DNA of 64,000 bases. Source: Chaetoderma sp. LZ-2023a (taxonomy: Eukaryota > Mollusca > Caudofoveata > Chaetodermatida > Chaetodermatidae). Made by a program: the position numbers and the translations under genes. The stretch is from contig CM067372.1 of NCBI GenBank assembly GCA_034401795.1, positions 17,759,924 through 17,823,923 on the forward strand. Direction: 5' to 3'. Shown here one piece after another: positions 250-40,394 of the stretch. How positions within the stretch are numbered: position 1 is the first letter of the stretch; each line of letters opens with the position of its first letter. Below the pieces are notes generated by a model. It saw nothing but the letters and a program-made list of their open reading frames with translations. It did not search any database and was not told the origin of the DNA.

Positions 250-337
250 GTCCTCTTTCTAAACAAACTCGACTTGTTTCGAGACAAGATCTTATATTCT
301 CATCGACATCTCTCTTACTTCCTACCAGATTATGCAG
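250..337 (+). CDS. G-protein alpha subunit, penultimate exon with NKxD motif
   Basis: This 88-nt exon encodes 29 residues beginning VLFLNKLDLF and ending SYFLPDYA, plus the first base of a split glycine codon. FLNKLDLF is the G4 guanine-specificity motif (NKxD) of heterotrimeric G-protein alpha subunits. The ending matches the family segment that usually reads (C/Y)(F/Y)PEY(A/T)G. The exon is bounded by TTTTTCTAG at 248-249 and by CAG|GTAAGC at 337/338. It ends in phase 1, and its last base plus GA at 4391 rebuilds a Gly codon, so it splices in frame to the exon at 4391. G-alpha subunits bind GTP at the inner plasma membrane and couple receptors to effectors. An intron between the YAG motif and the helix-5 region matches my memory of vertebrate Gi genes. 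The exon itself is short, so the gene seems to have an extra intron upstream of VLFLNK. The subclass is uncertain. Confidence 0.9.
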
Positions 338-1412
338 GTAAGCTATTGATGTTGTACTTGCTGCCAGGTTATTCAGGTAAGCTTTTCTTGTCATACTTGC
401 TGTCAAATTATACACTGCAAGTAAGCTTTTGATGGTAAGCTTCCTGTTAAATTATGATGGTAAGCTGTCATACTTCCTCATATATTATGACGGTAAGCTG
501 ACATACTTTCTGTTAAATCATGACAGTAAGTTGTCATACTTCCTGTTAAATTATAATGGTAAGATGTCATACTTCCTGTTAAATTATGACGGTAAGCTGT
601 CATATTTCCTGTTAAATCATGACAGTAAGTTGTCATACTTCCTGTTAAATTATAACGGTAAGTTGTCATACTTCCTGTTAAATTATAACGGTAAGCTGTC
701 ATACTTCCTGTTAAATTATAATGGTAAGCTGTCATACTTCCTGTTAAATTATGACGGTAAGCTGTCATACTTCCTGTTAAATTATGACGGTAAGCTGTCA
801 TACATCCTGTTAAATTATGATGGAAAGCTGTCATATTTCCTGTTAAATCATAATGGTAAGCTCTCATACTTACTGTTAAATCATAATGGAAAGCTGTCGT
901 ACTTCCTGTTAAATTATTATGGAAAGCTGTCGTACTTCCTGTTAAATTATACAGGTAAGCTGTCATACTTCTTGTTAAATTATACAGGTAAGCTGTCATG
1001 CTTCCTGTTAAATTATGACAGCAAGCAGTCATACTTCCTGTTAAATCATAATGGTAAGCTGTCATACTTCCTGTTAAATTATAACAGTAAGCTGTCCTGC
1101 TTCCTGTTAGGTTATAACATTAAGTTGTCACACTTCCTGTTAAATTATGACGATAAGCTCATACTTTAAATTATGATGGTAAGCTGTCTTACTTCCTGTT
1201 AAATTATGAGGGGAAGCTGTCATGCTTCCTGTTAAATTATGCAGGTAAGCTGTCATACTTCCTGTTAAATTATACAGGTAAGCTGTCATGCTTCCTGTTA
1301 AATTATGCAGGTAAGATGTCATACTTCCTGTTAAATTATACAGGTAAGCTGTTGTACTTCCTGTTAAATTATGACTCTAAGCTGTCATACTTCCTGCCGG
1401 ATTGTACAAGCT
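313..1412 (+). repeat. 33-bp tandem array made from the exon end and its 5' splice site
   Basis: There are about 33 head-to-tail copies. A typical unit reads CATACTTCCTGTTAAATTAT, then GACGGTAAGCTGT. The units at 1222-1252 and 1321-1351 match the authentic exon/donor junction (307-337 plus GTAAGCT) at about 25 of 31 positions. The two units nearest the exon and the last unit (1388-1412) keep the exon-like CCAGATTAT or CCAGGTTAT or CCGGATTGT core, so the array appears seeded from the exon. Nearly every unit keeps GGTAAG, AGTAAG or GGAAAG where the donor lies. Spacing is irregular at first (39, 44, 14 and 25 nt) and then steady at 33 nt from about 460. Because 33 is a multiple of three and the unit lacks stops, both strands stay open for long runs (11-residue period NYDGKLSYFLL). 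I regard those frames as a by-product. Confidence 0.92.
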
Positions 1413-1839
1413 ATTGATCAAACTACTACTATGAAGGCAATTTAGTCCAGTCAAATTAACACAAGTTTTGACAAAACCTACCACTAATTGCAACAGAGAT
1501 GCAACCACCTAGAATCTATTCAGTAGGGTCGCCTAGATGATAGGTAAAAAATCTAATAAAATATTTTGGGCGGAACATGTAGAATTCAAGATGGCTTCCA
1601 ATCGAGTATAATATGGCACATATCTCTCATATTAGACCACATAAATTTATTACGAGTAGATAGAAACATGGCCCTAATCTACTGAAAAATGATGTTTTCT
1701 GCATTCCATGACCACTCTATGATGTCACAACCCAATAGCTAGTTCGAGGTTTGCAAACCATTTCTACATTCAGGAGATCACTTAAGAAGACCACCTGTGA
1801 AAGGGACCGGGCATTTGCGCTGATAGATTCGGTATCTAA

Positions 1840-3116: not shown

Positions 3117-3620
3117 AATGTAGAAATGGTTTACAAACATCGAATTTCAGTGTTAACTGTTGGTTTGTGACATCATAGAGTGGTTCCGGGGTGCTGAAGA
3201 CATGATTTTTCAGTAGATTGGGGGCATGCTTCTATCTACTCGTAATAAATTTATGTGGTCTAATATGAACCGTTACTGAGATATGTGCCATATTATACTC
3301 GATTGGAAGCCATTTTGAATTCTACATGTTCTACTCAAAGTATTTTATTAGATTTTTTACCTATCGCCTAGGCGACCCTACTGAATAGATTCGGTAATAA
3401 ATTTATGTGGTCTAAAATGAACCGTTTTCGAGATATGCCATATTATACCTGATTGATGGCCATCTTGGCAGCGATCTTGAATTCAACATGTTCCACTTCA
3501 GCGATTTTATTAGATTTTTTACTCATCATTTCTGAGACCTAAGTACACAAAATAAAAGGATTTCATTGCTGTTGCAATTGGTGTGGGTTAAACCCTAGAT
3601 TGACTGCACTAATTATTTCA

Positions 3621-4011: not shown

Positions 4012-4101
4012 GTTGAATAGTTTGAAACTAGTTTGATTGGAAGTTGTTGCTGCCTATTACAGCAACAATATTCAGTCAAATTAGTTTCAAATTATTCAAC
4101 A
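4012..4101. mobile_element. Hairpin MITE, family 1 (GTTGAATA...TATTCAAC core)
   Basis: This is a near-palindrome. The left arm begins GTTGAATAGTTTGAAACTAG; the right arm ends AGTTTCAAATTATTCAAC, with the loop near TATTAC. It belongs to the dispersed hairpin family seen at 20718, 22319, 25616, 26593, 27256, 58361 and 59744. Confidence 0.8.
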
Positions 4102-4390
4102 GCTTACCTCTATGATTGCTTTTATACCACATTGCCAAACTGCAGCTGACACCTCATAGGCTGTAGAAATGTATCAACATTTAGCTACTAATGCCTAAAT
4201 ATCATTCGGTGTCGGCTTGATAAAAAGCTGAAATGTCAGGGATGGAATAATGGGTGGCAAATTCTATCACCTGAATGGTTAGTATAAAATAAGGTGAGAT
4301 TTCCTTTAAAAGATTAGTTGTCTAAGTTCCTAAAAATGGTTGCCATGTCGATGATTTGTGTGACTATGATCTAGTTATCTGTCATTGCAG

Positions 4391-4584
4391 GACCAAAGTG
4401 TGATGTTAACCACGCTGCCTCGTATATCCAGCACCTGTTTGTCATGCAGAGTCAGCAGAAATATGCCAAATCTGTGTACACACACCTGACTACTGCCACA
4501 GAGACGAGCAATGTTGAGGTGGTGTTTGATAGTGTGATGGACTCAATTATCCGTGGGAATCTCAGTACGACGGGACTGCTCTAA
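4391..4584 (+). CDS. G-protein alpha subunit, last exon (guanine-binding TCAT-like motif and C-terminus)
   Basis: The acceptor is TGTCATTGCAG|G. The two bases GA complete a glycine codon begun in the exon at 250-337. The exon then encodes 63 residues, starting PKCDVNHAASYIQHLF and ending GNLSTTGLL before TAA at 4582-4584. The order AASYIQ, VYTHLTTATET, NVEVVFDSVMDSII matches the family pattern AAxYIQ, IYTHxTCATDT, NVQFVFDAVTDVII. VYTHLTTATET is the G5 guanine-ring motif, with Thr where the family normally has Cys (TCAT). The C-terminus is the receptor-contact helix. Its fourth residue from the end is Thr, not the Cys that pertussis toxin modifies in Gi/Go, so the product should be insensitive to that modification. 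It is closest by eye to Gi/Go-type or Gv-type subunits; I cannot choose between them. A diverged but apparently intact 3' end. Confidence 0.92.
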
Positions 4585-4734: not shown

Positions 4735-5406
4735 TTGGTACAATTTCTAGCTTGACCAGGCTGGTGGTCTAATAACAATTTCTATCTTGAACAGGCTGGT
4801 GGGCTAGTAACAATTTCTAGCTTGGCCAGCTTGGTGGGCTAGTAACAATTTCTATCTTGACCGGTTTAGTGGGCTAGTAACAATTTCTAACTTGGCCAGC
4901 TTGGTGAGCTAGTAACAATTTATAATTAGACCAGCTTGGTGGGCCAGTAACAATTTCTATCCTGACCAGTTTGGTGGGCTAGTAACAATTTCTATCTTGA
5001 CCAGCTTGGTGGGCTAGGAACAATTTCTATCTTGACCAGCTTGGTGGGCTAGTAACAATTTCTATCTTGACCAGGCTGGTAGGTTAGTAATAATTTCTAT
5101 CTTGACCAGTTTGGTGGGGTAGTAACAATTTCTATCTTGACCAGCCTGGTGAGCTAGTAACAATTTCTATCTTGACCAGCCTGGTGAGCTAGTAATAATT
5201 TCTATCTTGACCAGTTTGGTGAGCTAGTAACAATTTCTATCTTGACCAGCCTGGTGAGCTAGTAACAATTTCTATCTTGACCAGCCTGGTGAGCTAGTAG
5301 CAATTTCTATCTTGACCAGCCTGGTGAGCTAGTAACAATTTCTATCTTGACCAGCCTGGTGAGCTAGTAACAATTTCTAGCTTGACCAGCCTGTTGTGCT
5401 AGTAAC
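4735..5406 (+). repeat. 35-bp tandem array downstream of the G-alpha stop codon
   Basis: About 19 copies of a unit that reads AGTAACAATTTCTATCTTGA followed by CCAGCCTGGTGAGCT. Copies vary mainly at GTGAGC/GTGGGC. The array starts about 150 bp after the stop codon and could lie in the 3' untranslated region. No AATAAA is visible before it. Confidence 0.9.
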
Positions 5407-5493
5407 ATTGTGTATCCTCGTTATTACATGACAGACTATAATAACCCTTGTACATGCATCAATGAGCTTACTGGGCTGGCAAAATGTCCATGG

Positions 5494-5712
5494 TGGCTCA
5501 TCCATGTTGAATGTAGTGGTCCATGGTGACTCATCCATGCAGAATGTACTGGTCCATGGTGACTCATCCTTGTTGAATGTACTGGGCCATGGTGACTCAT
5601 CCATGTTGAATGTAGTGGTCGATGGTGACTTATCCATGTTGAATGTACTGGTCCATGGTGACTCATCCATGCAGAATGTACTGGTCCATGGTGACTCGTC
5701 CATGTTGCTTTC
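5494..5712 (+). repeat. 33-bp tandem array containing TGACTCA sites
   Basis: About seven copies of a unit GGTCCATGGTGACTCATCCA followed by TGCAGAATGTACT. Most units hold CCATGG and TGACTCA, the latter a perfect AP-1/TRE consensus. Because the unit is 33 bp, a 118-codon frame (5462-5818) runs through it with an 11-residue period (VVHGDSSMLNV). I see no other sign that it is coding. Confidence 0.85.
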
Positions 5713-6419: not shown

Positions 6420-7185
6420 GTGATTTCTTTGATATGCTAGCGTGTTTTGTCCCGGTTTAATGTGTTTCCGGGACTCGCGCTTACCGTGATTAGCGCCTAT
6501 TTGAGTTGGTTTTTTACAACATGGTGCTTCATAAGTCTCATTTCTCTTTGTGTTTTTGTCCACAGGTATCACGTAGAAGCTTTGATGGACTTCTCGGCAC
6601 AAGAGGATATGTTTCTCTCCACCACGGTTCCATTTCCTACTAATACTGTTAGGTTATCTAACCAAAAAATCTATGTTCAGTGAGTTGGAGGCTTATTATA
6701 AAGGTCTTCTCGCTTTGCCCTCTTGATCCAATTCCTTCCCCTTCGGTGGAGAGAGTGTAGAGGCGTACTATGGTGGAGTTCTCCGGTACATCACGTTGGA
6801 TGGTTTGTCTGTACAAGGTGTCAGGTATCTAATTATTGATAAACAAAAGGGGAGATAATTTCCTTTTTTGCCAATGCTAGAATTGGAAGGAGTTATCTCT
6901 GTATATCTGATTGTTGTGTACTCGAAATGCCAATTCAACTGGAATGTTCCGGTTACTTATACAATTCGTTCTTGCACTTGGTGCTTGTTGCGGATCGATT
7001 ATTTTTGTCACGGGATTGATGACGTCATAATCGGCCTTGGCCTTTATTAACATTTAACGTTTTGTCCAACGCTGGTTCTTCTTGACTTGCGATCTTTTGG
7101 ATCCTGTCCCTCTCTTTTTAGTTGGTTTTGAGTTCGCTAACCTTAACTATCTTGCTCATTGTCCTTGTCCTTTGTCCTGTTTCAG

Positions 7186-9234
7186 AGACCTGGTTGCCCG
7201 TCCTGCGGGAGGTTTCTGAAGAATAGATTCGTACCGCACTTGTGCTTCAGCTGCAGTCCCTGTGGACCGTTGCTGAAGTGCGATGTATGTAAGCAGTGGG
7301 GGGGAGATCTAATGTCTGATTTTCTCTCATTGCAGGCGAGGGAGAAGGTGATGGAGGAAGAGAGGAAGAAGAAGAAGGAGGGTAGTAAGAAGGGTAAGAA
7401 GAAGGCCTCATCCGCGGTGGATATGGAGGCCTTCAGGTCCGAAATGTTGCAAGAGATGCAGAGGACAATAAAGGATTTGGTCCCAGAGTTGCTTCGCAGC
7501 ATGCTTCCTGGGCCAGCTCCTTTGTTGTCCTCGGCATCTGCTTCCGAGCAGGTGATCCCCGCCTCTGAATCCGGTCTCTTTAGGTCCGGTCCGTTTGTGG
7601 ATTCAGAGGTGGCCCCTTTGTTGGGGGCAGTCCAAGACCCTGGCAGCAGGCATGGCGCCGCGCCGAGGGGCCGTGGACAACGGTTGTTGCTGGGACCCGC
7701 GGTCTGCTCATCAGACCCCGGGTATCCGCGCGCCGAAGGTGTCAAGGCCTCCTATGGCACCTTTCCTGGCCAGTCCGGGTTAGCTCTCTTTGCTGACCCG
7801 GAGTCTAATCTTTCTGGCCAGGAGGAAGAGGATCTCCTGCTAGGGTCGCCTTCTGAGGACGTGGACATGGAATACGACGTCTGTGCACCACTCGCGGGGA
7901 ATACAGGCGACGTGTTCCGTGGTTCTACTCTCGCAGGAGTAGATTTCACGGTCCAGAAGGTGTCCCTGGGCGGTGCTGTTGACCACGGATACCGCATACC
8001 TCGGCTTGCCGATGGTGTCGCTGGTGCTGGTCAGGGCCGCGGTAGGGCGGTGTTTACCCCACGCTCTGCCACGGCGCCTGCTCCTGGTCAAGCCACGGAG
8101 TTCAGCATGCCTGCTCTCTCGGGCCCGCATGCTTTTCCGGGCTTGCCAGGGGTATCAGCTTATCCGCCGTCGACGTCAACTGCGGGTGCTCTGGAGGAAG
8201 ACGAAGGCCCTCGTCTAGTAGAGCGCTCGCAGTTAGCCACGGAGGAGGATTGGTCGGACGCTTGCCAGTGGCTGGTAAGTGTTCGGCCCGATCTACCCGT
8301 GGAGCTGCCGGCTAGCCAGCGTGACCATAGGCCGTGGTTAGCTGGTAGGCCGGCGGCTACCGCTATGCCATCTCTGCCGCTGGCTGAGCATGTCGTGGAC
8401 ATGTTCGAAGCGGCGGAGGCGTCCATTAAGGTTAATGGACGTCTCGCGAAGGCCCCTCGCGAGGTGGCGAAGCGTTGCCGCATCGTGCCCCTGGACTACC
8501 AGCGGTACGGTGTGGTGCCAAAGCCAAGCGTGGATGATCGCGCGGCTTTAGGCGAAGATGCGCGGCCGGGCTCCCGTTCTGACACGGGAGTCTTGTGCTC
8601 GAACGCGTTGCGTTCGGCGAATGCCGCGCTGCGTGATGCGGAGGAGAGTGGGAGGGCGTCGATTGCCGCTCTGTCCCACGTCTCCCAGCTGCTACAGGGG
8701 GTGGTAGCGGCCTCCGCATCACGCCAGCCAAGCCCGGTAACAGTCCAGAGAGCCATCCAGGATGGTATCAACCTGGCTTTGGACTGTTTGACGCGGGCGG
8801 TGACCAGAAGTGTCCGGGCGAGGCGCACGTTTGCCCTTGACAATCTGTGCCCGTCCCAGGACCTGTATAATAGGCTGCTGCGGACGCCTATGACAGGTCC
8901 TGGTCTCTTTGGAGGTGAGGGATGCAGGCACCTCCAGGAGACGGTCACTCTGGTTAACAACCAGAGGGCGCTGCGTGAACAATTTGAGGTGCTCCGGCGG
9001 GAGCGTGTTCGCGCGGCACCCCCTGCGTATCGTCCTCTGCAGGCTCGAGGTGGTGCTGGCCAGGTCAGAGGCCAGCCACCGTCGCAACGTAGGCCTAGGC
9101 CACGTGCGATTCGGCCAGCAGCGAGGGGGGCGCAGGCTCCCCAGCCGCACCCAGCCAGACAGCCGCCCGCGCACCGTGGTGCGTGCGGCGCTGGGCGGGG
9201 CGCGCGGGGATCTGGTCGCGGCAATCGGGCCTGA
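7186..9234 (+). CDS. gag: DIRS gag-like protein
   Basis: This is a 682-codon open frame if it starts at the acceptor at 7185/7186. A TTG-initiated frame runs back to 7159 and the first in-frame ATG is at 7312. The N-terminus is cysteine-rich (CPSCGRF, HLCFSC, CGPLLKCDVC), a likely zinc-binding module that an ATG start at 7312 would lose; this favours the spliced start. A Lys/Glu-rich coiled segment follows (about residues 50-75), then a long low-complexity acidic and Gly/Pro region, a more ordered central part (around VDMFEAAEASIKVNGRLAKA), and an Arg/Gly/Pro-rich tail that ends GRGARGSGRGNRA and probably binds nucleic acid. The region is GC-rich compared with the flanks. Function as a nucleocapsid-like protein is inferred from position and composition; DIRS gag proteins diverge quickly. 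It overlaps the upstream end of the RT frame. Confidence 0.8.
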   Translation, partial: RPGCPSCGRFLKNRFVPHLCFSCSPCGPLLKCDVCKQWGGDLMSDFLSLQAREKVMEEERKKKKEGSKKGKKKASSAVDMEAFRSEMLQEMQRTIKDLVPELLRSMLPGPAPLLSSASASEQVIPASESGLFRSGPFVDSEVAPLLGAVQDPGSRHGAAPRGRGQRLLLGPAVCSSDPGYPRAEGVKASYGTFPGQSGLALFADPESNLSGQEEEDLLLGSPSEDVDMEYDVCAPLAGNTGDVFRGSTLAGVDFTVQKVSLGGAVDHGYRIPRLADGVAGAGQGRGRAVFTPRSATAPAPGQATEFSMPALSGPHAFPGLPGVSAYPPSTSTAGALEEDEGPRLVERSQLATEEDWSDACQWLVSVRPDLPVELPASQRDHRPWLAGRPAATAMPSLPLAEHVVDMFEAAEASIKVNGRLAKAPREVAKRCRIVPLDYQRYGVVPKPSVDDRAALGEDARPGSRSDTGVLCSNALRSANAALRDAEESGRASIAALSHVSQLLQGVVAASASRQPSPVTVQRAIQDGINLALDCLTRAVTRSVRARRTFALDNLCPSQDLYNRLLRTPMTGPGLFGGEGCRHLQETVTLVNNQRALREQFEVLRRERVRAAPPAYRPLQARGGAGQVRGQPPSQRRPRPRAIRPAARGAQAPQPHPARQPPAHRGACGAGRGARGSGRGNRA

Positions 9235-9244
9235 TGGGCTGGTT

Positions 9245-11337
9245 ACCGCGGTGGGAACCACTCCGGTGTTTCACGCCGAGAGGACAGTGCCACTCTTGCA
9301 CTCCTTATGTCCGCCTCTATCCCTAGGTGGACCGGTGGGCGGCCGTTTGGCCGGCCACTTGCCAGAGTGGAAGCGGTTGACTCAGGACCGTTTAGTCTTG
9401 CGATGGCTTTCAGTCGGGTATCGTCCCGACTGGATGACAGGCCCGCCATCGCGACTGTCTCTCGCGCCGATCTGGACTCCGATTCCACGGGATCCGGATC
9501 AGAGGTTGTGTATAGAGGAGGAAATAAGTTCCCTCATACTAAAAGAAGCCATTCAGCCGGCACAGAGGTGCCCGGGCTTCTATTCAACCCTCTTCTTAGT
9601 GAAGAAAAACACCGGAGGGTGGAGGCCGATTCTCAACCTCAAGCCTTTGAACAAGTTCATAGAGACGCCCAGTTTCAAGATGGAGACTGTGCGCTCGGTA
9701 TTGGCGGGGTTGGAGCGAGGAATGTGGACCGCTTCCATAGATTTGAAGGATGCGTATTTCCACATTCCCATAGAGAGGAGTTTCCGTCACTTCCTGAGAT
9801 TCGCATTAACACCTTCGGGATTTCCACGGCTCCTCGGGTCTTCACCCGTGTGGTTCTCGCGATCACTGCATACCTCCGCAGGAGAAGCATAGCAGTCCAC
9901 ACGTACATAGACGACTGGCTGTTGAAAGCACACACCCGGGAATCGTTGTCAGCCAATCTGGAGATTGTTTTGAAAACTCTCTCGGACTTGGGCTGGATGA
10001 TCAATTTCCCGAAATCAGAGCTAACTCCATCCCAGAAGTTTGTTTACCTGGACATGTTCTTCGATCTGGAGACGGGGTATGTGTACCCCACTCAGGAGAG
10101 GGTTCAAATACTCATCTCGGTAATACAGTCGGTGTGCGACAGTCGTCATGTCCTGGCACGGGTTTACTTGAGAATGCTGGGCTTGATGGTTTCTTTGGAA
10201 CCAGTCATTCCGCAGGCCGCCTTGCGCAGGCGCCCGATCCAGTTGTTTCTCATGACACAGTGGACCCAGAGTTCGGGTTCGCTGGACTCGAGTGTGTCAG
10301 TGTTGGCGCCTCTGGTTCACCACTTGCAATGGTGGTTAGCTACAGAGAATCTCTTGCCGGGGGTTTTGCTGACCCCTCCCCACCCTCAGGTGACTCTGTA
10401 TACAGATGCATCGATGGAGGGGTGGGGAGCTTGTCTGGAAGAGTCCACAGTATCAGGGCTTTGGGATCTGGATCAGTCCAAGGAACATATCAATCTACTA
10501 GAGCTAAGAGCAGTAGTCCTGGGCCTGGAACATTTCTTAAGGAATGTTCAGGGCAAGATTGTTCTGATTCGTTCAGACAACTCGACAGTAGTGACTTACA
10601 TAAACCGCCAGGGCGGAACGAAGTCGCCCAGTCTCTGTATGATGACATGGAAACTGCTTTGTTGGTGCCTGGATCATGGGATCACCTTGAAAGCAGTTCA
10701 TATTCCGGGGAGGTTAAATCTGCTAGCAGACTCATTGAGCCGAAGGATGAGTGTTTTACCCACGGAATGGCAACTAAATCAATGTGTGGCGGATCGTCTG
10801 TTCGACCATTTGGGGAAACCCAACATAGATTTGTTCGCAACGAAGAAGAATGCGAAGATGACGACGTACGTCTCTCCGATTCCAGACCCAAGCGCTTTCG
10901 CAACAGATGCGTTAGCTATCAGCTGGGAGGGAATGTATGCATACGCATTCCCCCCAGCAATCCTGATTCCAAAGGTGCTTCAGAAAATCAGGCAGCAGGA
11001 GTGCCAAGTGCTTCTGATCGCCCCGGATTGGCCAAGCCGATCGTGGTATACGGATCTGCTGGACCTTCTGGTCTGCAATCCGGTTCCGCTGCCTCTGATG
11101 GACGACCTTATCTTCCAGGGCAAGGCCCTTCACGACAATCCGTCAATGTTCCGATTGACTGCGTGGATGTTGTCAAGGAATCTAGAATTAAGGAGGGCTT
11201 TTCTGAGCAAGCGGCCATGTTTATGGCCAAAGCCAGGAGGGGGTCAACCTCCAGAGCATATAATTATAAAATCAACAGATTTGCAGAGTGGTGCTCAAAA
11301 AGATGTATTGATCCAATGGAATCATCTATTCAGGTAG
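9245..11337 (+). pseudogene. pol: DIRS reverse transcriptase / RNase H / methyltransferase-like, broken by a small deletion
   Basis: The 5' part lies in the frame open from 8909 to 9892. It has GRLAGHLPEWKRLT, GFYSTLFLVKKNTGGW and motif A SIDLKDAYFHIPI (catalytic Asp at 9740). The frame then jumps: after LRFAL (about 9810) the family needs roughly ten residues and LPFG, but the sequence goes straight to TFGISTAPRVFTRVV in the frame open to 11337. This indicates a deletion of about 30 nt that also shifts the frame. Motif C is YIDD at 9904-9915. RNase H follows, with LYTDASMEGWGA, LLELRAV, RSDNST and HIPGRLNLLADSLSR carrying its acidic residues. After it comes the DAM/N6-adenine methyltransferase-like region of DIRS elements, from DLFATKKNAK through YAFPPAILIPKVL to LTAWMLS (about 11175). 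Without the repaired frame no full RT can be made. The start codon is uncertain. Confidence 0.9.
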
Positions 11338-12176
11338 TGGCTGATTTCCTCTGTCACCTATATGATGCCTATAGCCTCAAGCCTAACTCTATTGCTGGTT
11401 ATAAATCAGCTTTAATGACTGTTATCCCTTGCTTGGCTAATAGGGGGAGTGATGAAGTAAGTACATTAAATGTATTAATTAAAGGCATGGGCAATCTAAG
11501 ACCAAGGAATCCTCCACTGATTCCGTCTTGGAGTTTATCACTGGTGCTCCAGGTACTAGGTGATAAGCCTTTTGAACTACTTAGTTCCATTTCTATGAAA
11601 ATGTTAACTCTTAAAACTGTATTTTTAATTGCTGCGGCCTCGGCGAGGCGTAGGAGTGAGATTCGCGCCTTATCAGCCGAGGTTGACCGTTTTGTGGTTA
11701 CAGGGGAAGGCCTTAAGCTTCTACCTAGGATTAATTTCTTGTCTAAAAATCAGTCATTGAAATATCCAGGTCAGCCTATTTTTTTGCCATCTTTAACTAG
11801 ATATGATCCTGGTTCTAAAGTATGGTGTCCCGTCCGGGCGCTGCTCCGGTACAGACAGCGTACTTCGGAGTGGCGTACCGACCTATCAGCTTTATGGTTG
11901 GCATATATTGAACCCCATGGTAGGGCGTCTAAGGACACCATTTCTAGGTGGATTGTGGAATGTATTCAATTTTGTCACAAATCCGCCACCGGGCGACAGG
12001 TTGACGTGGCCAAGGCTCACAGTGTCCGCGGTGTCGTGGCATCCACTGCCCTGTTTAGTGGGGTCCCTGTGGATGATATTATGTCAGTGGCTCAGTGGCA
12101 CTGTGAGTCAAGTTTTACAGACCATTACCTCCGTGACACCTCTAACCCTCTCGCCTTGTCGATTTTGAAACAATAA
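11160..12176 (+). CDS. DIRS tyrosine recombinase
   Basis: The recombinase occupies the last 340 codons of a frame open from 10134; the upstream part overlaps RT/RNase H and is a shadow. Conserved sequence begins near GFSEQAAMFMAKARRGS; the first ATG there is at 11217, so the start could be either side. The N-terminal core-binding part includes TSRAYNYKINRFAEWC. Catalytic residues are visible: Arg in SARRRSEIR (about 11652), the His-x-x-Arg box in AHSVRG (His 12018, Arg 12027), and a Trp in AQWHC. The Tyr nucleophile is in FTDHYLRD (about 12126). Length and motif order fit DIRS recombinases, which close and integrate the circular element by strand exchange. The frame is intact. It overlaps the RT frame by about 180 nt, as is usual in DIRS elements. 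Confidence 0.9.
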   Translation, partial: CVDVVKESRIKEGFSEQAAMFMAKARRGSTSRAYNYKINRFAEWCSKRCIDPMESSIQVVADFLCHLYDAYSLKPNSIAGYKSALMTVIPCLANRGSDEVSTLNVLIKGMGNLRPRNPPLIPSWSLSLVLQVLGDKPFELLSSISMKMLTLKTVFLIAAASARRRSEIRALSAEVDRFVVTGEGLKLLPRINFLSKNQSLKYPGQPIFLPSLTRYDPGSKVWCPVRALLRYRQRTSEWRTDLSALWLAYIEPHGRASKDTISRWIVECIQFCHKSATGRQVDVAKAHSVRGVVASTALFSGVPVDDIMSVAQWHCESSFTDHYLRDTSNPLALSILKQ

Positions 12177-20589: not shown

Positions 20590-20995
20590 ATGGACATTTC
20601 CAGTTTTTGCTATGCCCCGCCCATCTCTAGCTAAGCTCCACCCACACCTCGCTCATGTTGGGACCGATCGATCTCTGAGCACCCTGACTATCAATTTCCA
20701 AAAAAATACACATTTAAGCTGTTGAATATTTTGAAACCAATTTGACTGGGTGCTATTGCTGCCTAAGGCAGCAACAGCGCCCAGTCAAATTAGTTTCAAA
20801 ATATTCAACAGCATGTTTATTAAATAGCTAAGAATTACAAAGACACAATTCATACAACGTGTTGGAGTATTTGAGATTTGGTGACGGTCGATATGGAACC
20901 CTTTGTGACGCAATGATTGTGACGTCAGCATACACGCACTGAGCTGATTATGACATCATATGAGGTCTGATAATGGATGGATACTCTGGAAATGT
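20590..20995. mobile_element. Family C DNA element, copy 1, with perfect-stem hairpin core
   Basis: The ends are GGACATTTCCAGTTTTTGC and CTGGAAATGTG. The body has GCTATGCCCCGCCCATC(T)CTAGCTAAGCTCCACCCAC, a hairpin at 20718-20812, and GATTATGACATCATATGA near the right end. The hairpin has two 46-nt arms around TAA with few mismatches; it begins GCTGTTGAATATTTTGAAAC and ends TTTCAAAATATTCAACAGC. No open frame, so non-autonomous. Confidence 0.8.
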
Positions 20996-22194: not shown

Positions 22195-22562
22195 GGAGGA
22201 ATCCAGTTTTAGCTATGCCCCACCCATTTCTAGCTAAGCTCCACCCACACTGCCTGTGTTGGGATCAATCGACCCATGCACTCTATGAATCTCAATTTCC
22301 AGAAAACTATACAGGTAAGCTGTGGAATATTTTGAAACTAATTTGACTGGGTGCAACAACGACCAGTCAAATTAGTTTCAAAATATTCAACAGAATGTTT
22401 ATTAAATATTAAAAACATACAATTCGTACGTGTCAGACTATTAATCATTTGTGACGGACTATATCGCATTATTCATAACGTAATTGATTATGACGTCAGC
22501 CTACATGTGACTTACTTGATTATGGTGTCATATGATTGACTCAGAAACTGGATTCCTCAATT
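22195..22562. mobile_element. Family C DNA element, copy 3
   Basis: The terminal inverted repeat is exact over 14 bases: GAGGAATCCAGTTT on the left and AAACTGGATTCCTC on the right. The hairpin core lies at 22319-22393 with a shortened loop (GTGCAACAACGA). The same CCCCACCCATTTCTAGCTAA and GATTATGACGTCAGCC blocks as in the other copies are present. Confidence 0.85.
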
Positions 22563-25469: not shown

Positions 25470-25800
25470 TCCTGTCTGTCACTCAATAATCAATTACGTC
25501 ACTAGGTAGCTGGCATCACAATCAATATGATGGACCTCTGTTAGGAAAAATCAAAAAGTCTGTCACTAATGTGTATAAATTGGTAATTAATGAAGTTACA
25601 ATTCAATAAACATTTTGTTGAATATTTTAAAACTAATATATTACTGGGAGCTGTTGCTGCCATAAGCAAATACAGTTCCAAGTTAAATTAGTTTCAAAAT
25701 ATTTAACCGCTTTCTCCCTTTTGCGCCATTGAAATTTACATGCTGAGAATTCAGGTTTCAAAGTTTTAAATCGCTTCCAGCAAAAGTAAAACTTGTATGA
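25470..25800. mobile_element. Element D copy with family 1 hairpin
   Basis: It has CTGTCTGTCACTCAATAATC at the left and a hairpin at 25616-25708 (TTGTTGAATATTTTAAAACT ... TAGTTTCAAAATATTTAACC). CAGGTTTCAAAGTTTTAAAT and CGCTTCCAGCAAAAGTAAAA lie at the right. The same order occurs at 27185-27430. Confidence 0.65.
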
Positions 25801-27516: not shown

Positions 27517-30500
27517 TAAGTATCCCTGAAGTAAAGTCATGACAGTGTGTCTGCTCTAACAGAATATCACTGAAGTAAAGTCATGACAGTGTGTCTGCTC
27601 GAACAGATATCACTGAAGTAAAATCATGACAATGTGTCTGCTCTAACGGATATCACTGAAGTAAAATCATGACAGTGTGTCTGCTCTAACAGATATGACT
27701 GAAGTAACGTCGCGACAGTGTGTGCTCTAACAGATACCACTGAAGTAAAATCATGACAGTGTGTGCTCTAACAGATATCCCTGAAGTAAAATCATGACAG
27801 TGTGTCTGCTCTAACAGATATCCCTGAAGTAAAGTCATGGCAGTGTGTCTGCTCTAACAGATATCACTGAAGTAACATCGCGACAGTGTGTCTGCTCTAA
27901 CAGAATATCACTGAAGTAAAGTCATGACAGTGTGTCTGCTCTAACAGATATCACTGAAGGCAAGTCATGACAGTGTGTACTACTTTAACAGATATTCATG
28001 AAGTAAAGTCATGACAGTGCATCTGCTCTAACAGATATCCATGTAGTAAAGGCATGACAGTGCATCTGCGCTAATAGATACCATTGAAGTAAAGTCATGA
28101 CTGTGTCTGCTCTAACAGATATCACTGAAGTAACGTCGCGACAGTGTGTCTGCTCTAACAGATATCACTGAAGTTACATCACGACAGTGTGTCTGCTCTA
28201 ACAGATATCACTAAGTAAAGTCATGACAGTGTGTCTGCTCTAACAGATATCACTGAAGTAAAGTCGTGACAGTGGGTCTGCTTTAACAGATACCACTGAA
28301 GTAAAGTCATGATAGTGTGTCTGCTTTAACAGATATCCCTGAAGTAAAGTCATGGCAGTGTGTCTGCTCTAACAGATACCACTAAGTAAAGTCATGACAG
28401 TGTGTCTACTTTAACAGATATTCCTGAAGTAGAGTCATGACAGTGCATCTGCTCTAACAAATATCCATGTAGTAAAGTCATGAGTGTGTGGCTGCTCTAA
28501 CAGATATCCCTGAAGTAGTCATGACTGTGTTTGCTCTAACAAATATCCCTGGAGTAAAGTCACGATAGTGTGTCTAGTTATGACAGTGCATCTGCTCTAA
28601 CAGATATCACTAAGTAAAGTCATGACAGTGTGTCTGCTCTAACAGATATCCCTGAAGTAATGAGGGTGTCTGCTTTAACAGACACCCCAGAAGTAAAGTC
28701 ACGACTGTGTCTGCTCTAACAGATATCCCTGAAGTAAAGTCATGACAGTGTGTCCGCTCTAACAGATATCCCTAAAGTAAAGTCAAGACAGTGTGTGTGC
28801 TCTAACAGATATCATTGAAGTAACATCGCGACAGTGTGTCTGCTCTAACAGATATCACTGAAGTAAAGTCATGACAGTGTGTCTACTTTAACAGATATTC
28901 CTGAAGTAAAGTCATGACAGTGTTTCTGCTCTAACTGCTATCCCTGATATAAAGTCACGTGTGTGTGCCTGCTTTAACCGATATCCCTGAAGTAAAGTCA
29001 CGACTGTCTGCTCTAACAGATATCCCTGAAGTAAAGTCATGACAGTTTGTCTGCTCTAACAGATATCCCTGAAGTAAAGTCATGACAGAGTGTCTGCTCT
29101 AACAGATATCCCTGAAGTAAAGTCATAACAGTGTGTCTGCTCTAAAAGATATCACTAAGTAAAGTCATGACAGTGTGTCTGCCCTAACATATATCACTGA
29201 AGTAGTCATGACGGTGTGTCTGCTCTAACAGATATCACTAAGTAAAGTCATAACAGTGTGTCTGCTCTAAAAGATATCACTAAGTAAATTCATGACAGTG
29301 TGTCTGCTCTAACAGATATCCCTGAAGTAAAGTCATGGTAGTGTGTCTGCTCTAACAGATATCCCTGAAGTAGTCATGACCGTGTGTCTGCTCTAACAGA
29401 TATCACTATGTAATGTCATGGTAGTGTGTCTGCTCTGACAGATATCACTGAAATAACGTCATGACAGTGTGTCTGCTCTAACAGATACCACTAAGTAAAG
29501 TCATGGAAGTGTGTCTACTCTTACAGATATCCCTGAAGTCCTGACTGTGTGCTCTAACAGCTATCACTAAGTAAAGTCATAACAGTATGTCTGCTCTAAC
29601 AGATATCACTAAGTAAAGTCATGACAGTGTGTCTGCTCTAACATATATCACTGAAGTAAATTCATGGTTGTGTGTCTGCTGTAACAGATATCACTGAAGT
29701 AATGTCACGACAGTGCATCTGCTCTAACAGATATCCCTGTAGTGAAGTCATGTCAGTGCATCTGTGCTAACAGATACTATTGAAGTAAAGTCATGACAGT
29801 GTGCCTGCTCTAACAGATATCACTGAAATTAAATCATGACAGTCTGTCTGCTCTAACAAATATCCCTGAAGTAAGGTCATGGTAGTGTGTCTGCTGTAAC
29901 ATATATCACTAAAGTAATGTCACGACAGTGCATCTGCTCTAACAGATATCCCTGTAGTACAGTCATGACAGTGCATCTGCGCTAACATATACCATTGAAC
30001 TAAAGTCATGACAGTGTGTCTGCTCTAACAGATATCCTTGAAGTAATGTCATGAGTGTTTGTGTGCTCTAACAGATGTTCCTGAAGTAGTCACGACTGTG
30101 TCTGCCCTCACAGATATCCCTGAAGTAGTCATGACAGTGTGTCTAGTCATGACAGTCTGGCTGCTCTAACAGATATCCCTAAAGTAAAGTATGACAATGT
30201 GTCTGCTCTAACATATATCACTAAAGTAAAATCATGACAGTGTGTCTTCTCTAACAGATATCACTGAAGTAATGTCATGGTAGTGTGTCTGCTCTGACAG
30301 ATATCACTGAAGTAACATCGCGACAGTGTGTCTGCCCTAACAGATATCACTTAAGCAACGTCGCAACAGTGTCTGCTCTAACATATATCACTGAAGTTAC
30401 ATCGCGACGGTGTGTGCTCTAACAGATACCACTGAAGTAAAGTCATGACAGTGTGTCTGCTCTAACAGATATCACTAAGTAAAATCACGACAGTGTGTCT

Positions 30501-32566
30501 GCTCTAACAGATATCACTGAAGTAACGTTGCGACAGTGTGTCTGCACTAACAGATATACCTGAAGTAAAGTCATGAGTGTGTGGCTGCTCTAACAGATAT
30601 CCTTGAAGTAGTCACCACTGTGTTTGCTCTAAGAAATATCCCTGGAGTAAAGTCAAGATAGTGTGTGTAGTTATGACAGTGTGTCTGCTCTAACAGATAT
30701 CACTAGGTAAAGTCATGACAGTGTGTCTGCTCTAACAGATGCCATTGAAGTAAAGCCATGACACTGTCTGCTCTAACAGATATCCCTGAAGTAAGGTCAC
30801 GACTGTGTCTCCTCTAACAGATATCCCTGAAGTAGGCATGACAGTGTGTCTGCTCTAACACTTATCCCTGAAGTAAAGTCATGACAGTGTGTCTACCCTA
30901 ACAGATATCACTGAAGTAATGTCATGACAGTGTGTCTGATTTAATAGATATCACTGAGGTAATGTCATCACAGTGTGTCTTCTCTAACAGATATCCCTGA
31001 AGTAAGGTAGTGACAGTGTGTCTGCCCTAACAGATATCAGTGAAATAATGTCATGACAGTGTGTCTGCTCTAACAGATATCACTAAGTAAAGTCATGACA
31101 GTGTGTCTGCTCTAACAGATATCCCTGAAGTAAAGTCATGGTAGTGTGTCTGCTGTAACAGATATCACTGAAGTAATGTCACGACAGTGCATCTGCTCTA
31201 ACAGATATCCCTGTAGTAAAGTCATGTCAGTGCATCTGTGCTAACAGATACTATTGAAGTAAAGTCATGACAGTGTGCCTGCTCTAACAGATATCACTAA
31301 GTAAAGTCATGACAGTGTGTCTGCTCTAACAGATATCCCTGAAGTAAAGTCACGACTGTGTTTGCTCTAACAAATATCCCTGGAGTAAAGTCAAGATAGT
31401 GTGTGTAGTTATGACAGTGTGTCTGCTCTAACAGATATCACTAAGTAAAGTCATGACAGTGTGTCTGCTCTAACAGATATCCCTGAAGTAGTCATCAGTG
31501 TGTCTGATCTAACAGATATACCTGTAGTAAAGTCATGACAGTGCATCTACGCTAACAGATGCCATGACACTGTGTCTGCTCTAACAGATATCCCTGACGT
31601 AAGTCACGCGTGTGTCTTCTCTAACAGATATCCCTGAAGTAGTCATGACAGTGTGTCTGCTCTAACAGTTATCCCTGAAGTAAAGTCATGACAGTGTGTC
31701 TACCCTAACAGATATCACTAAAGTAATGTCATGACAGTGTGTCTGATTTAACAGATATCACTGGGGTAATGTCATCACAGTGTGTCTTCTCTAACAGATA
31801 TCCCTGAAGTAAAGTCGTGACAGTGTGTCTGCTCTAACAGATATCACTGAAATAACGTCATGACAGTGTGTCTGCTCTAACAGTTATCCCTGAAGTAAAG
31901 GCATGGCAGTGTGTCTGCTCTTACGGATATCACTAAGTAAAGTCCTGACAGTGTGTCTGCTCTAACAGATATCACTAAATGAAGTCATGACTGTGTCTGC
32001 TCTAACAGATATCCATGAAGTAAAGTCATGAGCGTGTGTCTGCTCTAACAGATATCCCTGAAGTAACGTCGCGGCAGTGTCTGCTCTAACATATATCACT
32101 GAAATAACGCCATGACAGTGTGTCTGCTCTAACAGATATCCCTGAAGTTAAGTCATGGTAGTGTGCCTACTCTTACAGATATCCCTGAAATAAAGTCCTG
32201 TCAGTGTGTCTGCTCTAACAGATATCACTAAATGAAGTCATGACTGTGTCTGCTCTAACAGATATCACTAAGTAAAGTCATAACAGTGTGTCTGCTCTAA
32301 CATATATCACTAAGTAAAGTCATGACAGTGTGTCTGCTCTAACAGATATCACTGAAGTAAATTCATGACAGTGTGTCTGCTCTAACAGATATCCCTGAAG
32401 TAAAGTCATAGTAGTGTGTCTGCTGTAACAGATATAACTGAAGTAATGTCACGACAGTGCATCTGCTCTAACAGATATCCCTGTCGTAAAGTCATGACAG
32501 TGCATGTGTGCTAATAGATATCACTGAAATAAAATCATGACAGTCTGTCTGCTCTAACAGATATCC
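27517..32566 (+). repeat. 43-bp satellite, block 1
   Basis: About 117 copies of CTCTAACAGATATCACTGAA followed by GTAAAGTCATGACAGTGTGTCTG. Main variants are ATATCCCTG for ATATCACTG, shortened units lacking TGAAGTAA, and GTGTGTCTAGTTATGACAG fusions. Blocks of several adjacent variants recur in the same order (for example around 30629 and 31373), so higher-order repeats exist. The frames read from it are by-products. Confidence 0.95.
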
Positions 32567-33377
32567 TGATATACTGATAATACAACAAGAGATGTAAGAC
32601 GTGCCACGATTAAAGTGAAACTCCTGGTTGATACATACATTCTACAAGCTAATCCTAGTCGCTTTAATCAGTTTGCTGCACCTGACACATGCCAGCTTTG
32701 TCGGCTAACAAAAGAAGACAGAACTCACTTCCTCGTAACTTGTCCAATGCTGATGGAATCCAGAAAACCGTATCTAGAAGATATCCGCTCTGTTGTACTC
32801 CAGGAGATCGACCCAGTAGCATATGATAGGCTGATTGCTGACCCAGAAAACGTGGCTCAACTAATCTTGGACCACTCCAAACTTTTCACCTGCTCCGATA
32901 TCAACCTGTCCGCAGAGAACTATCAAAAGTATCCAGAATCACACGCGCTCCCTGCTATGCCCTTCATTTGAAGCGAACCGACCTGGAAAGCCATTGTATA
33001 TAACTAAATCTCCGTGAATTTGTGCATTGTGCACATCCACCTTTTGCCGCACTGACTTTTGTCAAGCTATCACACACGAACTATGTACAGTATGCACGCA
33101 CTTCTCAACACGATCGAATTGCTTGCCTGAGCTACGGTTCCTGGAAATTAATATAACCTGGATACTCTCCCAGGAGTGTCAGTATCGTGACGGATTCAAT
33201 CCAGCTTGTGCGTGTGTGCACGGCAACATCGGTTGCTTCTTCGTGTGTTCCGAACATTAGTTAAATTAATAAAAAAAACTTTAATAATAAACTATTGTGC
33301 AACTCAAGTTGCAACTCTTCGTTACCCTGCTCGTGCCAGGGGTGAGCCCATCGAGGCTGGCGTTCCGAGTACAGATT
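32567..33377 (+). mobile_element. 5'-truncated LINE inserted in the satellite, copy 1
   Basis: The 811-bp insertion is flanked by an exact 10-bp duplication of the satellite, ACAGATATCC (32557-32566 and 33378-33387). It carries the 3' end of the LINE reading frame and a 3' untranslated region. That region includes the hairpin GCAACTCAAGTTGC and ends GGCGTTCCGAGTACAGATT. No long poly(A) tail is present. Confidence 0.9.
32579..32971 (+). pseudogene. LINE ORF2 C-terminal fragment with CCHC-type zinc-binding motif
   Basis: The open stretch reads TTRDVRRATIKVKLL, then TYILQANPSRFNQF, then CQLCRLTKEDRTHFLVTCP (a C-x2-C-x8-H-x4-C pattern), and ends at TGA (32969-32971). This is the C-terminal segment that follows RT in many non-LTR retrotransposons. 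There is no start codon because the element is truncated at its 5' end. It cannot make an active enzyme. Confidence 0.85.
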
Positions 33378-33387
33378 ACAGATATCC

Positions 33388-35838
33388 CTGAAGTAAAGTC
33401 ATGGTAGTGTGTCTGTTGTAACATATACCACTGAAGTAATGTCACGACAGTGCATCTGCTCTAACAGATATCCCTGTAGTAAAGTCATGACAGTGCATCT
33501 GCGCTAACAGATACCATTGAAGTAAAGTCATGACAGTGTGTCTGCTCTAATAGATATCCTTGAAGTAAAGTCATGAGTGTTTGTGTGCTCTACCAGATAT
33601 CCCTGATGTAAAGTCACGACAGTGTGTTTGCTCTAACATATATCCCTGAAGTAAAGTCATGACAGTGTGTCTAGTCATGACAGTCTGGCTGCGCTAACAG
33701 ATATCCCTGAAGTAAAGTCATGACAATGTGTCTGCTCTAACATATATCACTAAAGTCAAATCATGACAGTGTGTCTTCTCTAACAGATATCACTGAAGTA
33801 ATGTCATGGTAGTGTGTCTGCTTTGACAGATATCACTGAAGTAACATTACGACAGTGTGTCTGCTCTAACAGATATCACTTAAGTAACATCGCAACAGTG
33901 ACTGCTCTAACAGATATCACTGAAGTTACATCGCGACAGTGTGTCTGCTCTAACAGATACCACTGAAGTAAAGTCATGACAGTGTGTCTGCTCTAATAGA
34001 TATCACTAAGTAGAATCACGACAGTGTGTCTGCTCTAACAGATATCACTGAAGTAATGTCGCGACAGTGTGTCTGCTCTAACAGATATACCTGAAGTAAA
34101 GTCATGAGTGTGTGGCTGCTCTAACATATATCCTTGAAGTAGTCACGACTGTGTTTGCTCTAACAAATATCCCTGGAGTAAAGTCACGATAGTGTGTCTG
34201 CGCTAACAGATATCCCTGAAGTAAAGTCATGACAGTGTGTCTAGTTATGACAGTGTGTCTGCTCTAACAGATATCACTAAGTAAAGTCATGACAGTGTCT
34301 GCTCTAACATATGTCCCTGAAGTAGTCATGAGTTTGTCTGCTCTAACAGATATCCCTGTAGTAAAGTCATGACAGTGCATCTACGCTAACAGATGCCATT
34401 GAAGTAAAGCCATGACAGTGTCTGCTCTAACAGATATCCCTGACGTAAAGTCACGTGTGTGCGTGCTTTAACAGATATCCCTGAAGTAAAGTCACGACTG
34501 TGTCTTCTCTAACAGATATCCCTGAACTAAAGTCATGACAGTGTGTCTGCTCTAGCAGATATCACTGAAGTAAAGTCATGACAGTGTGTCTGCTCTACCA
34601 GATATCCCTGAAGTAGTCATGGCAGTGTGTCTGCTCTAACATATATCACTAAGTATAGTCACGACGTCTGCTCTAGCAGATATCACTGAAGTAACGTCAC
34701 GACAGTGTGTCTGCTCTAACAGATATCCCCGAGGTAAAGTCATGACAGTGTGTCTACCCTAACAGATATCACTGAAGTAATGTTATGACAGTGTGTCTGA
34801 TTTAACAGATATCACTGAGGTAATATCACAACAGTGTGTCTTCTTTAACAGATATCCCGGAAGTAAAGTCGTGACAGTGTGTCTGCTCTAACAGATATCA
34901 CTGAAATAACGTCATGACAGTGTATCTGCTCTAACAGTTATCCCTGAAGTAAAGTCATGACAGTGTGTCTGCTCTTACGGATATCACTAAGTAAAGTCCT
35001 GACAGTGTACCTGCTCCAACAGATATCACTAAATGAAGTCATGACTGTGTCTGCTCTAACAGATATCCCTGAAGTAAAGTCATGAGCGTGTGTCTGCTCT
35101 AACAGATATCCCTGAAGTAATGTCGCGGCATTGTCTGCTCTAACAGATATCACTAAGTAAAGTCATGACAGTGTGTCTGTTCTAACAGATATCCCTGAAG
35201 CAAAGTCACGACAGTGTGTCTGCTCTACCAGATATCCCTGAAGCAGTCATGACAGTGTGTCTGCTCTAACAGATATCCCTGAAGTAAAGTCATGGTAGTG
35301 TGTCTGCTGTAACAGATATCCCTGTAGTAAGGTCATGACAGTGCATCTGTGCTAACAGATACCATTGAAGTAACGTCATGGCAGTGTGCCTGCTCTAACA
35401 GATATCACTGAAATAAAATCATGACAGTCTGTCTGCTCTAACAGATATCCCTGAAGTAGTCATGGTAGTGTGTCTGCTGTAACATATATCACTGAAGTAA
35501 AGTCATGAGTGTTTGTGTACTCTAGCAGATATTCCTGAAGTGGTCACGACTGTGTCTGTTTTAACAGATATCCCTGAATTAAAGTCATGACAGTGTGTCT
35601 AGTTATGTCAGTGTGTCTGCTCTAACCGATATCACTAAGTAAAGTCATGACAGTGTGTCTGCTCTAACAGATATCACTGAAGTAATGTCACGACAGTGCA
35701 TCTGCTCTAACAGATATCCCTGTCGTAAAGTCATGACAGTGCATCTGTGCTAATAGATACCATTGAAGTAAAGTCATGACAGTGTGCCTGCTCTAGCAGA
35801 TATCACTGAAATAAAATCATGACAGTCTGTCTGCTCTA
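33388..35838 (+). repeat. 43-bp satellite, block 2
   Basis: About 57 copies of the same unit as at 27517. The variant order after the LINE (for example GTCTGTTGTAACATATACCA, then TGCATCTGCTC, then TGTTTGTGTGCTCTACCAG) is repeated after the second LINE at 40395, showing that this block plus its LINE was duplicated as one unit of about 3.3 kb. Confidence 0.95.
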
Positions 35839-36092
35839 ACAGATATCCTGATATACTGATAATACAACAAGAGATGTATGACGTGCCACGATTAAAGACG
35901 AACGTCCGTCGCAGGAGACCAACGTCTGTTGCACAGTTTGTCGGAGCTCGAGCTACACGTTCCTCGGACGCCCCAATTTTCACGTCTGCTAGCGAGGAGG
36001 CATGAGTCCGACTTTAGCGCGAACATGGTCATATTTTATAACAATTAGCGCAAGGAAAACGTACATTTAAAGGCTGACAATGGCTGGTATAG

Positions 36093-36497
36093 TACAACTT
36101 TGATTTAGATCTACAATATCGAAGACATTTCCGAAGAGAACGGGTTATTCGTGACAGGACTAATCCGATAGATATATATGATGACTTTGAATTGTACGAA
36201 CGGTATCGATTTGCTCGTATTGACATTCTTGAATTAGTTGATGAAATCCACGCTGACATAGAGCATAGAACGAACTGGAATGCGGCACTTTCACCTCTAC
36301 AGCAAGTCCTCATCGCACTAAGATTCTATGCAACCGGAAGCTACCAGACATTGACTGGGGATACGTTGAATGTCCATAAATCGACAGCTTGTCGAGCCAT
36401 CCGAAGTGTATCCTTGGCATTGGAGAGACGGCTGCAGCAACATGTGTACATACCGCAGGATGAGGATTATGTGGCAAACACAAAAACCAAGTTTGAA
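36093..36497 (+). CDS. Harbinger transposase, exon 1
   Basis: The open frame from 36093 encodes LQYRRHFRRERVIRDR, then YDDFELYERYRFAR and STACRAIRSVSLALERRL, ending KTKFE. This is the N-terminal helix-rich part of HARBI1-like transposases. It ends at GAA|GTAAGC (36497/36498) in phase 0. A TAG at 36090 precedes the frame. An ATG at 36080 (MAGIVQL) lies in another frame, so the start codon is either lost by a frameshift or on an unseen exon. Confidence 0.82.
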
Positions 36498-36595
36498 GTA
36501 AGCTCTATTGCCAAAATGTGCTACTACTGCGTGCGTGAATGTGTGTGTTTCTCTGTCGGTATGTCCATCTGTATGTCAGGCAGCATGAGTGTGCT

Positions 36596-36637
<42 letters not shown>

Positions 36638-36864
36638 TCAACAACAGCACCACCACCACCACCACCACCACCACCACCACTACCACTACTACCACCAACA
36701 CCACCACCACCACACCACCACTACCACTACTACTACCACCACCACCACCACTACCACTATCACCAATCACCACCACCACCACCACCACACCACCACCACC
36801 ACTACCACTACCAGCACCACCACCACCACTATCTCTACCACCACTACTACTGCTGCTGCTTCTG

Positions 36865-36942
<78 letters not shown>

Positions 36943-36957
36943 TTATTATTATTATTA

Positions 36958-37003
<46 letters not shown>

Positions 37004-37029
37004 GTGTTGTTGTTATTGTTATTCTACAG
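36498..37029 (+). repeat. Transposase intron filled with trinucleotide repeats
   Basis: The intron starts GTAAGC and ends TTATTCTACAG. Most of it (36596-37005) is a chain of trinucleotide tracts: CAT, CAC/ACC, ACT and ATT repeats. Because there are few stops, several frames remain open across the intron as low-complexity His, Thr, Pro or Leu runs; these are not genes. Confidence 0.85.
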
Positions 37030-40165: not shown

Positions 40166-40394
40166 CCTGGATACTCTCCCAGGAGTGTCAGTGTCGTGAC
40201 GGATTCAATCCAACTTGTGCGCGTGTTCCCGGCAACATCCGTTGCTTCTTCGTGTGTTCCGAACATTAGTTAAATTAATAAAAAACCTTAATAATAAACT
40301 ATTGTGCAACTCAAGTTGCAACTCTTCGTTACCCTGCTCGTGCCAGGGGTGAGCTCATCGAGGCTGGCGTTCCGAGTACAGATTATAGATATCC

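Follow-up and report, generated by a model that had tools for sequence, protein, structure and literature searches.

An intron of a G-alpha gene in Chaetoderma sp. LZ-2023a that opens with a tandem array of splice-donor-like units, most likely a tolerated minisatellite

Why should an intron begin with some 33 versions of its own 5' splice site? In the 64,000-nt stretch of DNA analysed here, which we call the window, the penultimate coding exon of a G-alpha gene runs directly into a tandem array whose units resemble the exon end together with its donor. Such an arrangement might be a device that acts on splicing, a product of some dispersed repeat, or simply a minisatellite that happened to be born at an exon border. 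Our analysis indicates that the array is real and of a kind already described, and that a genome rich in repeats most likely produced it as a by-product that is tolerated, a regulatory device being unlikely.

The G-alpha gene and its array

The two coding exons of the window (Table 1), when joined, give the C-terminus of a G-alpha protein (Pfam G-alpha, 2.6e-19) and match the G(i) alpha chains of the PDB at about 1e-17. The exon carrying DVGGQR (MFDVGGQRSQRRKWIQCF) lies ~3.5 kb upstream of the window, and a candidate exon with LEESIHLFKSICNN / LEESIHLFKSICNNRYFRGACM is found between the two. The gene, which is located on contig C14, looks intact in the separate pieces that were seen. It possesses an extra intron before VLFLNK that is absent from one of its paralogs (L033). 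In the G-alpha-v genes of Ctenophora, Porifera, Cephalochordata and jawed vertebrates, according to PMC5896119, exon 7 is split in two.

Six paralogous G-alpha borders of the same genome were compared, about 500 nt each (L033-L038). Judged from the translations, the intron stands at the identical place and in the identical phase in five of them (L033-L037), and in the Gs-like paralog (L038) the border is some codons further on. None of the six has an array at the donor within the stretch fetched. The presence of the intron at the same position in five arrayless paralogs argues that it is older than the array. In the intron of the Gs-like paralog, the last about 110 nt of the fetched stretch (C9:121491110-121491220) hold, by eye, part of an array of a ~20-bp repeat with ATGTAAGTG(G), which starts roughly 240 nt after the donor.

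Table 1. Positions of the features discussed, numbered from the first letter of the window
Feature	Position	Strand	Details and basis
Penultimate coding exon, G-alpha gene	250..337	+	phase 1 end; translation VLFLNKLDLFRDKILYSHRHLSYFLPDYAG
Tandem array, 33 units from exon end and donor	316..1427	+	TRF; wrap-around and MAFFT alignment; nulls
Authentic donor CAG/GTAAGC, first array unit	338..343	+	from translated borders; place and phase common to 5/6 paralogs
First two copies, 39 and 42 bp, most border-like	355..435	+	alignment
Array interior, mostly 33-bp units (28-35), homogenised	436..1387	+	alignment, pairwise identity
Last unit, border-like CC(A/G)GATT and AGCTATTGAT, without donor GT	1388..1427	+	alignment
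Possible decayed dispersed-repeat copy past the array	1404..1460	+	GTCCAGTCAAATTA identical over 14 nt
Dispersed-repeat copy with GAGGTAAGCTGTTGAA, in the array-bearing intron	4012..4117	-	alignment/core search
Terminal coding exon	4391..4584	+	GPKCDVNHAASYIQ...TTGLL stop; acceptor ...CATTGCAG at 4390
Other dispersed-repeat copies in the window	20716-20827, 22287-22423, 25554-25771, 59740-59868		also at many sampled loci

The array lies where the original prediction had placed it, from its exonic part at 316 to the last degenerate unit at about 1427, and to arrive at the predicted number of about 33 units one has to include both the real border unit and the broken one at the end. Exact GTAAG occurs 25 times over the 33 units, the true donor at 338 included. 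The strong-donor motif CAGGTAAG occurs eight times in the array region, seven of them among the 24 further GTAAG sites. The mean pairwise identity of the units at 471-1387 is 84%, and in the alignment the edge units (the first two copies and the last unit) differ from this homogenised interior. The units nearest to the exon had been described as the most exon-like, which proved correct for the first one or two (25 and 24 of 29 positions) and not beyond them, the units at 933 and 1223-1322 scoring 23-24. No gradient of exon-likeness was found along the array, border-likeness showing no trend with position (Spearman -0.03; 0.30, p 0.12, for the interior units alone). Clustering of like units by distance within the array is weak, with values as low in 244 of 2,000 permutations. 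The array was also considered as a run of coding repeats, since it holds an open frame of 262 aa and another of 213 aa on the other strand; this was rejected because long frames are expected of a stop-free 33-bp unit, and the frame of the exon itself stops at 430.

Origin of the repeat unit

The consensus of the array agrees with 23 of the 29 nt of the border, the best score among 37,683 other 29-mers sampled from the window, in any rotation, being 20. The exonic 22 nt taken alone and in any rotation are not unusual enough (16 positions, equalled in 10 of the 37,683). When they are kept in register with the donor, the maximum at 516 other GTAAG sites (about 324 kb) is 13, compared with 16 of 22 at the own border, and between the exon and the first copy 18 of 22 positions agree, a comparison in which the same sites reach at most 15. 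The borders of five paralogous G-alpha genes match the consensus at only 8, 8, 12, 8 and 8 of 22 positions. The match to the own border thus exceeds the sampled 29-mers, the GTAAG sites and the paralogous borders, and we therefore derive the unit from the exon/intron border of this gene, as had been proposed.

A search with the whole array in its own genome (2.44 Gb, 2,753 contigs), which skips very common words so that other copies may escape it, returned a single identical place, together with five weak matches of 68-72% located on contigs C6 and C13. The C13 array, in which no GTAAG unit was seen by eye, was taken as a chance match. The array on C6 (L011 3300-5200, about C6:83723600-83725500) consists of 34-bp units with 54 occurrences of GGTAAGATG and holds more donor-like units than the G-alpha array. 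It was considered as a second array made from an exon border and rejected, since its flank matches scattered copies of a dispersed repeat; this repeat, to judge by the flank, seeded the C6 array, and from the look of the units it is perhaps also the source of two arrays on C1 (C1:62483391 and C1:80793074).

The same dispersed repeat might have seeded the G-alpha array, or lent it sequence, in place of a pure origin from the exon border, and the possibility deserves attention even though we hold it to be improbable. The repeat, which carries TATACAGGTAAGCTGTTGAA, is abundant, has inverted arms and a strong donor-like TACAGGTAAG, and reads ...CAATTTCCAGAAAACTATACAGGTAAGCTGTTGAATATTTTGAAACTAATTTGACTG... 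in an alignment of 15 copies; in about 324 kb, 14 copies of its 22-nt core that differ by no more than three substitutions were found outside arrays, and BLAST gave further partial copies among the matches listed. Its likeness to the locus is considerable. The unit at 1322 shares 21 of 22 nt with the repeat and the border 17 of 19, the latter a score that 6 of 2,178 chunks attain, among them three repeat copies. The 14-nt exact match within 80 nt after the array (Table 1) belongs to a segment whose score with the repeat was reached in 1 of the 2,178 chunks, that chunk being itself a repeat copy. On the other hand, 31 of the 32 units, all but that at 834, resemble the border more closely than they do the repeat, though in many cases the margin is just one or two positions. 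Over the exonic 22 nt the repeat matches 13 positions whereas array units match up to 18, and the exon end is conserved coding sequence. Moreover, the repeat was met through the best genome match of the array, so that its likeness to the array is partly selected. The opposite relationship, in which the repeat would be a captured G-alpha exon end (FPENYTG resembling FPEYTG of G-alpha), was rejected: its scores with the paralogous borders, 16-22, are reached by 28 to 786 of the 2,178 chunks.

For an origin from the gene's own border, the units of this one assembly suggest the following course. About 39 bp across the exon end and its donor would have been duplicated in tandem. The alignment shows that the copies then dropped to 33 bp, grew in number and became homogenised within the array, its two ends remaining border-like.

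Donor retention, predicted splicing and comparable arrays

The original prediction held that nearly all units keep GGTAAG or a close form of it. This is too strong, GTAAG being intact in 19 of the 26 full-length, gap-free 33-bp interior units, where a uniform rate of change would leave 15.9. The GTAAG columns diverge from the consensus in 5.4% of cells and the other columns in 10.0%, a mean that owes much to three highly variable columns immediately ahead of the donor, and 11 of the 33 five-column windows have changed less than GTAAG. The lower divergence of the GTAAG columns and the excess of 19 over 15.9 are a mild sign of retention, and homogenisation also influences such counts. The retention of GTAAG is weak evidence either way and bears no clear mark of selection.

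The consequences of using the donors of the array can be predicted from their positions. The frame of the exon meets an in-frame stop at 430, and 22 of the 24 further GTAAG sites (from 435 on) lie beyond it. Of the two that precede it, the donor at 377 would add 39 nt in frame, that is 13 residues without a stop, and the one at 421 would shift the frame; a weak GT at 368 would add 30 nt in frame. Splicing most likely still takes place at donor 338, since the exon, at 88 nt, is short and hence favoured by exon definition, and since later donors nearly all bring a stop codon. The nine bases CAG/GTAAGC of the real donor recur unchanged in six donors of the array (377, 955, 988, 1245, 1278 and 1344), and the strength of the donor alone therefore cannot explain the choice of the first. 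If the first is indeed chosen, other factors, such as exon length, exonic enhancers or the order of transcription, would have to decide.

The original prediction knew of no described example of this scale, but two published systems have the same arrangement, namely the 'mirages' of amphioxus and the VNTR in intron 18 of human ABCA7. Amphioxus mirages are tandem repeats of exon/intron borders, found in Adh3, troponin C, the globins BflGb6 and BflGb9 and PGBD5, those of troponin C and PGBD5 having been added by the second of two articles (PMC3087553; PMC3902484). The mirages seem not to disturb regular splicing and no disturbance is reported (PMC3087553; PMC3902484); the boundaries of the clusters escape homogenisation, and the mirages vary in length (PMC3087553). 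Somatic instability also counts among the features of the class. The G-alpha array resembles the mirages: in both, splice signals are kept in many units and not in all (25 GTAAG over 33 units in our case), and in both the edge units, here the first two copies and the last, stand outside the homogenisation. The numbers differ, BflGb6 having 6 and 3 units in its two haplotypes, compared with 33 here. The G-alpha gene with its array is new relative to the genes that carry amphioxus mirages, and is known here from the sequence of one assembly.

The first GT of the ABCA7 VNTR is the donor of exon 18, its units are 25 bp long, and the reference has 23.7 copies, with alleles reaching 9.7 kb (PMC5954066). 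In the G-alpha array, too, the canonical donor of the preceding exon (donor 338) is the one in unit 1. The array differs in that about 22 nt of exon sequence can be recognised in its unit and in that its first unit, at 39 bp, is in frame, whereas retention of a 25-bp unit shifts the frame. In ABCA7 a donor lying one unit further on has a usage of 2 +/- 1%, which gives a one-unit retention; skipping of exon 19 rises with the length of the VNTR, expression is affected as well, and in 90% of the cases of one brain area the canonical transcript fell below the sum of the alternative ones (PMC5954066). By this analogy, arrays of donors need not be silent, with the difference that the links to expression and splicing were measured for ABCA7 and the G-alpha array is known from sequence alone. 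Intron gain by tandem duplication of AG/GT, as discussed in PMC3087553, shares with the G-alpha array a local duplication across splice-like sites, but the G-alpha intron is not new, five paralogs having it at the same place.

Could the array nevertheless be a working regulatory element? It might bind U1 snRNP, serve as a backup for a lost true donor, provide an isoform with 13 more residues through donor 377, or direct transcripts to decay through the donors past 430. We give this reading little credence, of the same order as a contribution from the dispersed repeat, although the array does offer 24 further GTAAG sites, seven of them the strong CAGGTAAG, a donor at 377 that is in frame and free of a stop, and GTAAG columns that diverge less than the mean of the rest, and although the length effects and low-level one-unit retention of ABCA7 (PMC5954066) lend it some plausibility. 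These points are countered by the one third of five-column windows that are kept better than GTAAG, by the arrayless donors of the six paralogous borders, by the frequency of strong-donor arrays in this genome, which is only 1.3 times that of a control motif, and by the amphioxus papers, which report no disturbance of splicing (PMC3087553; PMC3902484). The further proposal that the array buffers, competes for or regulates the choice of the 5' splice site has also to face the positions of its donors, 22 of 24 lying past the stop and one shifting the frame. A regulatory function of the array is thus not supported by these features, which indicate no function of it for the G-alpha gene.

We consider it quite probable, on the whole, that the G-alpha array is a minisatellite of the mirage type, built from the exon border of its own gene, of which the first donor is presumably used and which is a nearly neutral by-product. 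By analogy with ABCA7, donor 377 may be used at a few percent, as an expected leak that would add 13 residues in frame, and the array would otherwise be nearly neutral in a genome where minisatellites form at a high rate.

Minisatellites and donor arrays elsewhere in the genome

With a period of 10 or more and 4 or more copies as criteria, 17 minisatellites were counted in the window, 13 in the next 100 kb and 8 in ten scattered 10-kb samples. Three occurrences of CAGGTAAG at steps of 28-56 bp were found at 2,044 overlapping places, compared with 1,563 for the reversed motif (~1.3x), and the excess is present on one strand only (forward 1,223 vs 673; reverse 821 vs 890 for the reversed motif).

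The 5' flanks were examined for eight distinct arrays among the 100 places listed, all on contig C1 up to 154.8 Mb, the neighbouring clusters near 154.8 Mb being taken as one array. In two of the eight, the array opens at a coding-exon donor, an uncontrolled count. In the first (L039, C1:3947700-3948120), an exon encoding a J-domain (PF00226, 3.8e-10) ends with ...RRALIHHP, and its donor opens an array (C1:3946758-3947755) of about 29-bp units, many of them with CAGGTAAGTG. Ungapped, the exon end matches its own unit weakly, at 7 of 12 positions (equalled at 17 of 596 sites), and what makes the case is that exon end, donor and first unit follow one another without a break. In the second (L043, C1:79447530-79447950), a Kalirin-like exon (E 0.011; no Pfam match), which we take to be the SEC14 region of Kalirin, ends with CCCAG/GTAAGACACAG followed by CAGGTAAG repeats, and at its end 11 of 14 nt agree with its own unit, a score equalled at none of 596 sites. 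It is therefore likely that the genome holds at least two more donor mirages, in a J-domain gene and in a Kalirin-like gene. Among the remaining arrays, one resembles the dispersed repeat by eye (L042), one follows an open frame that looks by eye like the C-terminus of a reverse transcriptase and has no Pfam match (L045), and one has an exon-like stretch, again by eye, away from the border (L041); in the 5' flanks of the other three (L040, L044 and L046) no exon was visible by eye.

These data suggest that mirages arise alongside other minisatellites and are often tolerated. As a rough expectation, if minisatellites with units of around 35 bp arose blindly, at a density of about 0.1 per kb in 2.44 Gb with roughly 175,000 exon donors (an assumed figure, not an annotated one), several hundred of these donors would be caught, and a single array in a G-alpha gene would therefore need no special cause. 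An assembly artefact that inflated the copy number, or created the array itself, is very improbable, for although assemblies are known to go wrong at tandem arrays, the units differ from one another (at a mean identity of 84%), which helps assembly, the contig spans 178 Mb, and other loci carry similar arrays.

A bolder proposition, to which we would attach only a small chance, is that this genome repeatedly makes ladders of donors from authentic exon donors (G-alpha, J-domain and Kalirin-like), so that its cells must pick the exon-proximal one among many identical donors, and that the G-alpha ladder is used at a low, length-dependent rate, giving the isoform with 13 added residues together with transcripts targeted for decay. 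If this were true, the G-alpha ladder would offer a natural test of the way in which U1 selects one 5' splice site out of several identical ones. A series of identical donors, each at a fixed distance from the same acceptor, is something that students of splicing must usually construct for an experiment, and in a genome with several donor arrays the rules of 5' splice-site choice could be read from RNA data.

The window contains several other repeats and mobile elements. In the array-bearing intron, 1441-1740 and 3150-3600 (GGGTCGCC... / ...GGCGACCC) show an inverted similarity that looks by eye like a fold-back element. A 35-bp array (4740-5407) and a 33-bp array (5486-5707) directly follow the G-alpha stop codon and may belong to the 3' untranslated region. 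Three long overlapping open frames at 7147-12176 were named by eye as a DIRS-like retroelement; the middle frame matches RVT_1 at 2.4e-8, with RNase H below its cut-off. A large 43-bp satellite (TATCACTGAAGTAAAGTCATGACAGTGTGTCTGCTCTAACAGA) occupies 27521-35851 and 40387-43612, with further periods of 104-147 bp, and a transposase of the DDE_Tnp_4 type (9.7e-32) is encoded at 36093-37665, beside long ATC/CAC/CTA/TAT trinucleotide runs inside open frames.
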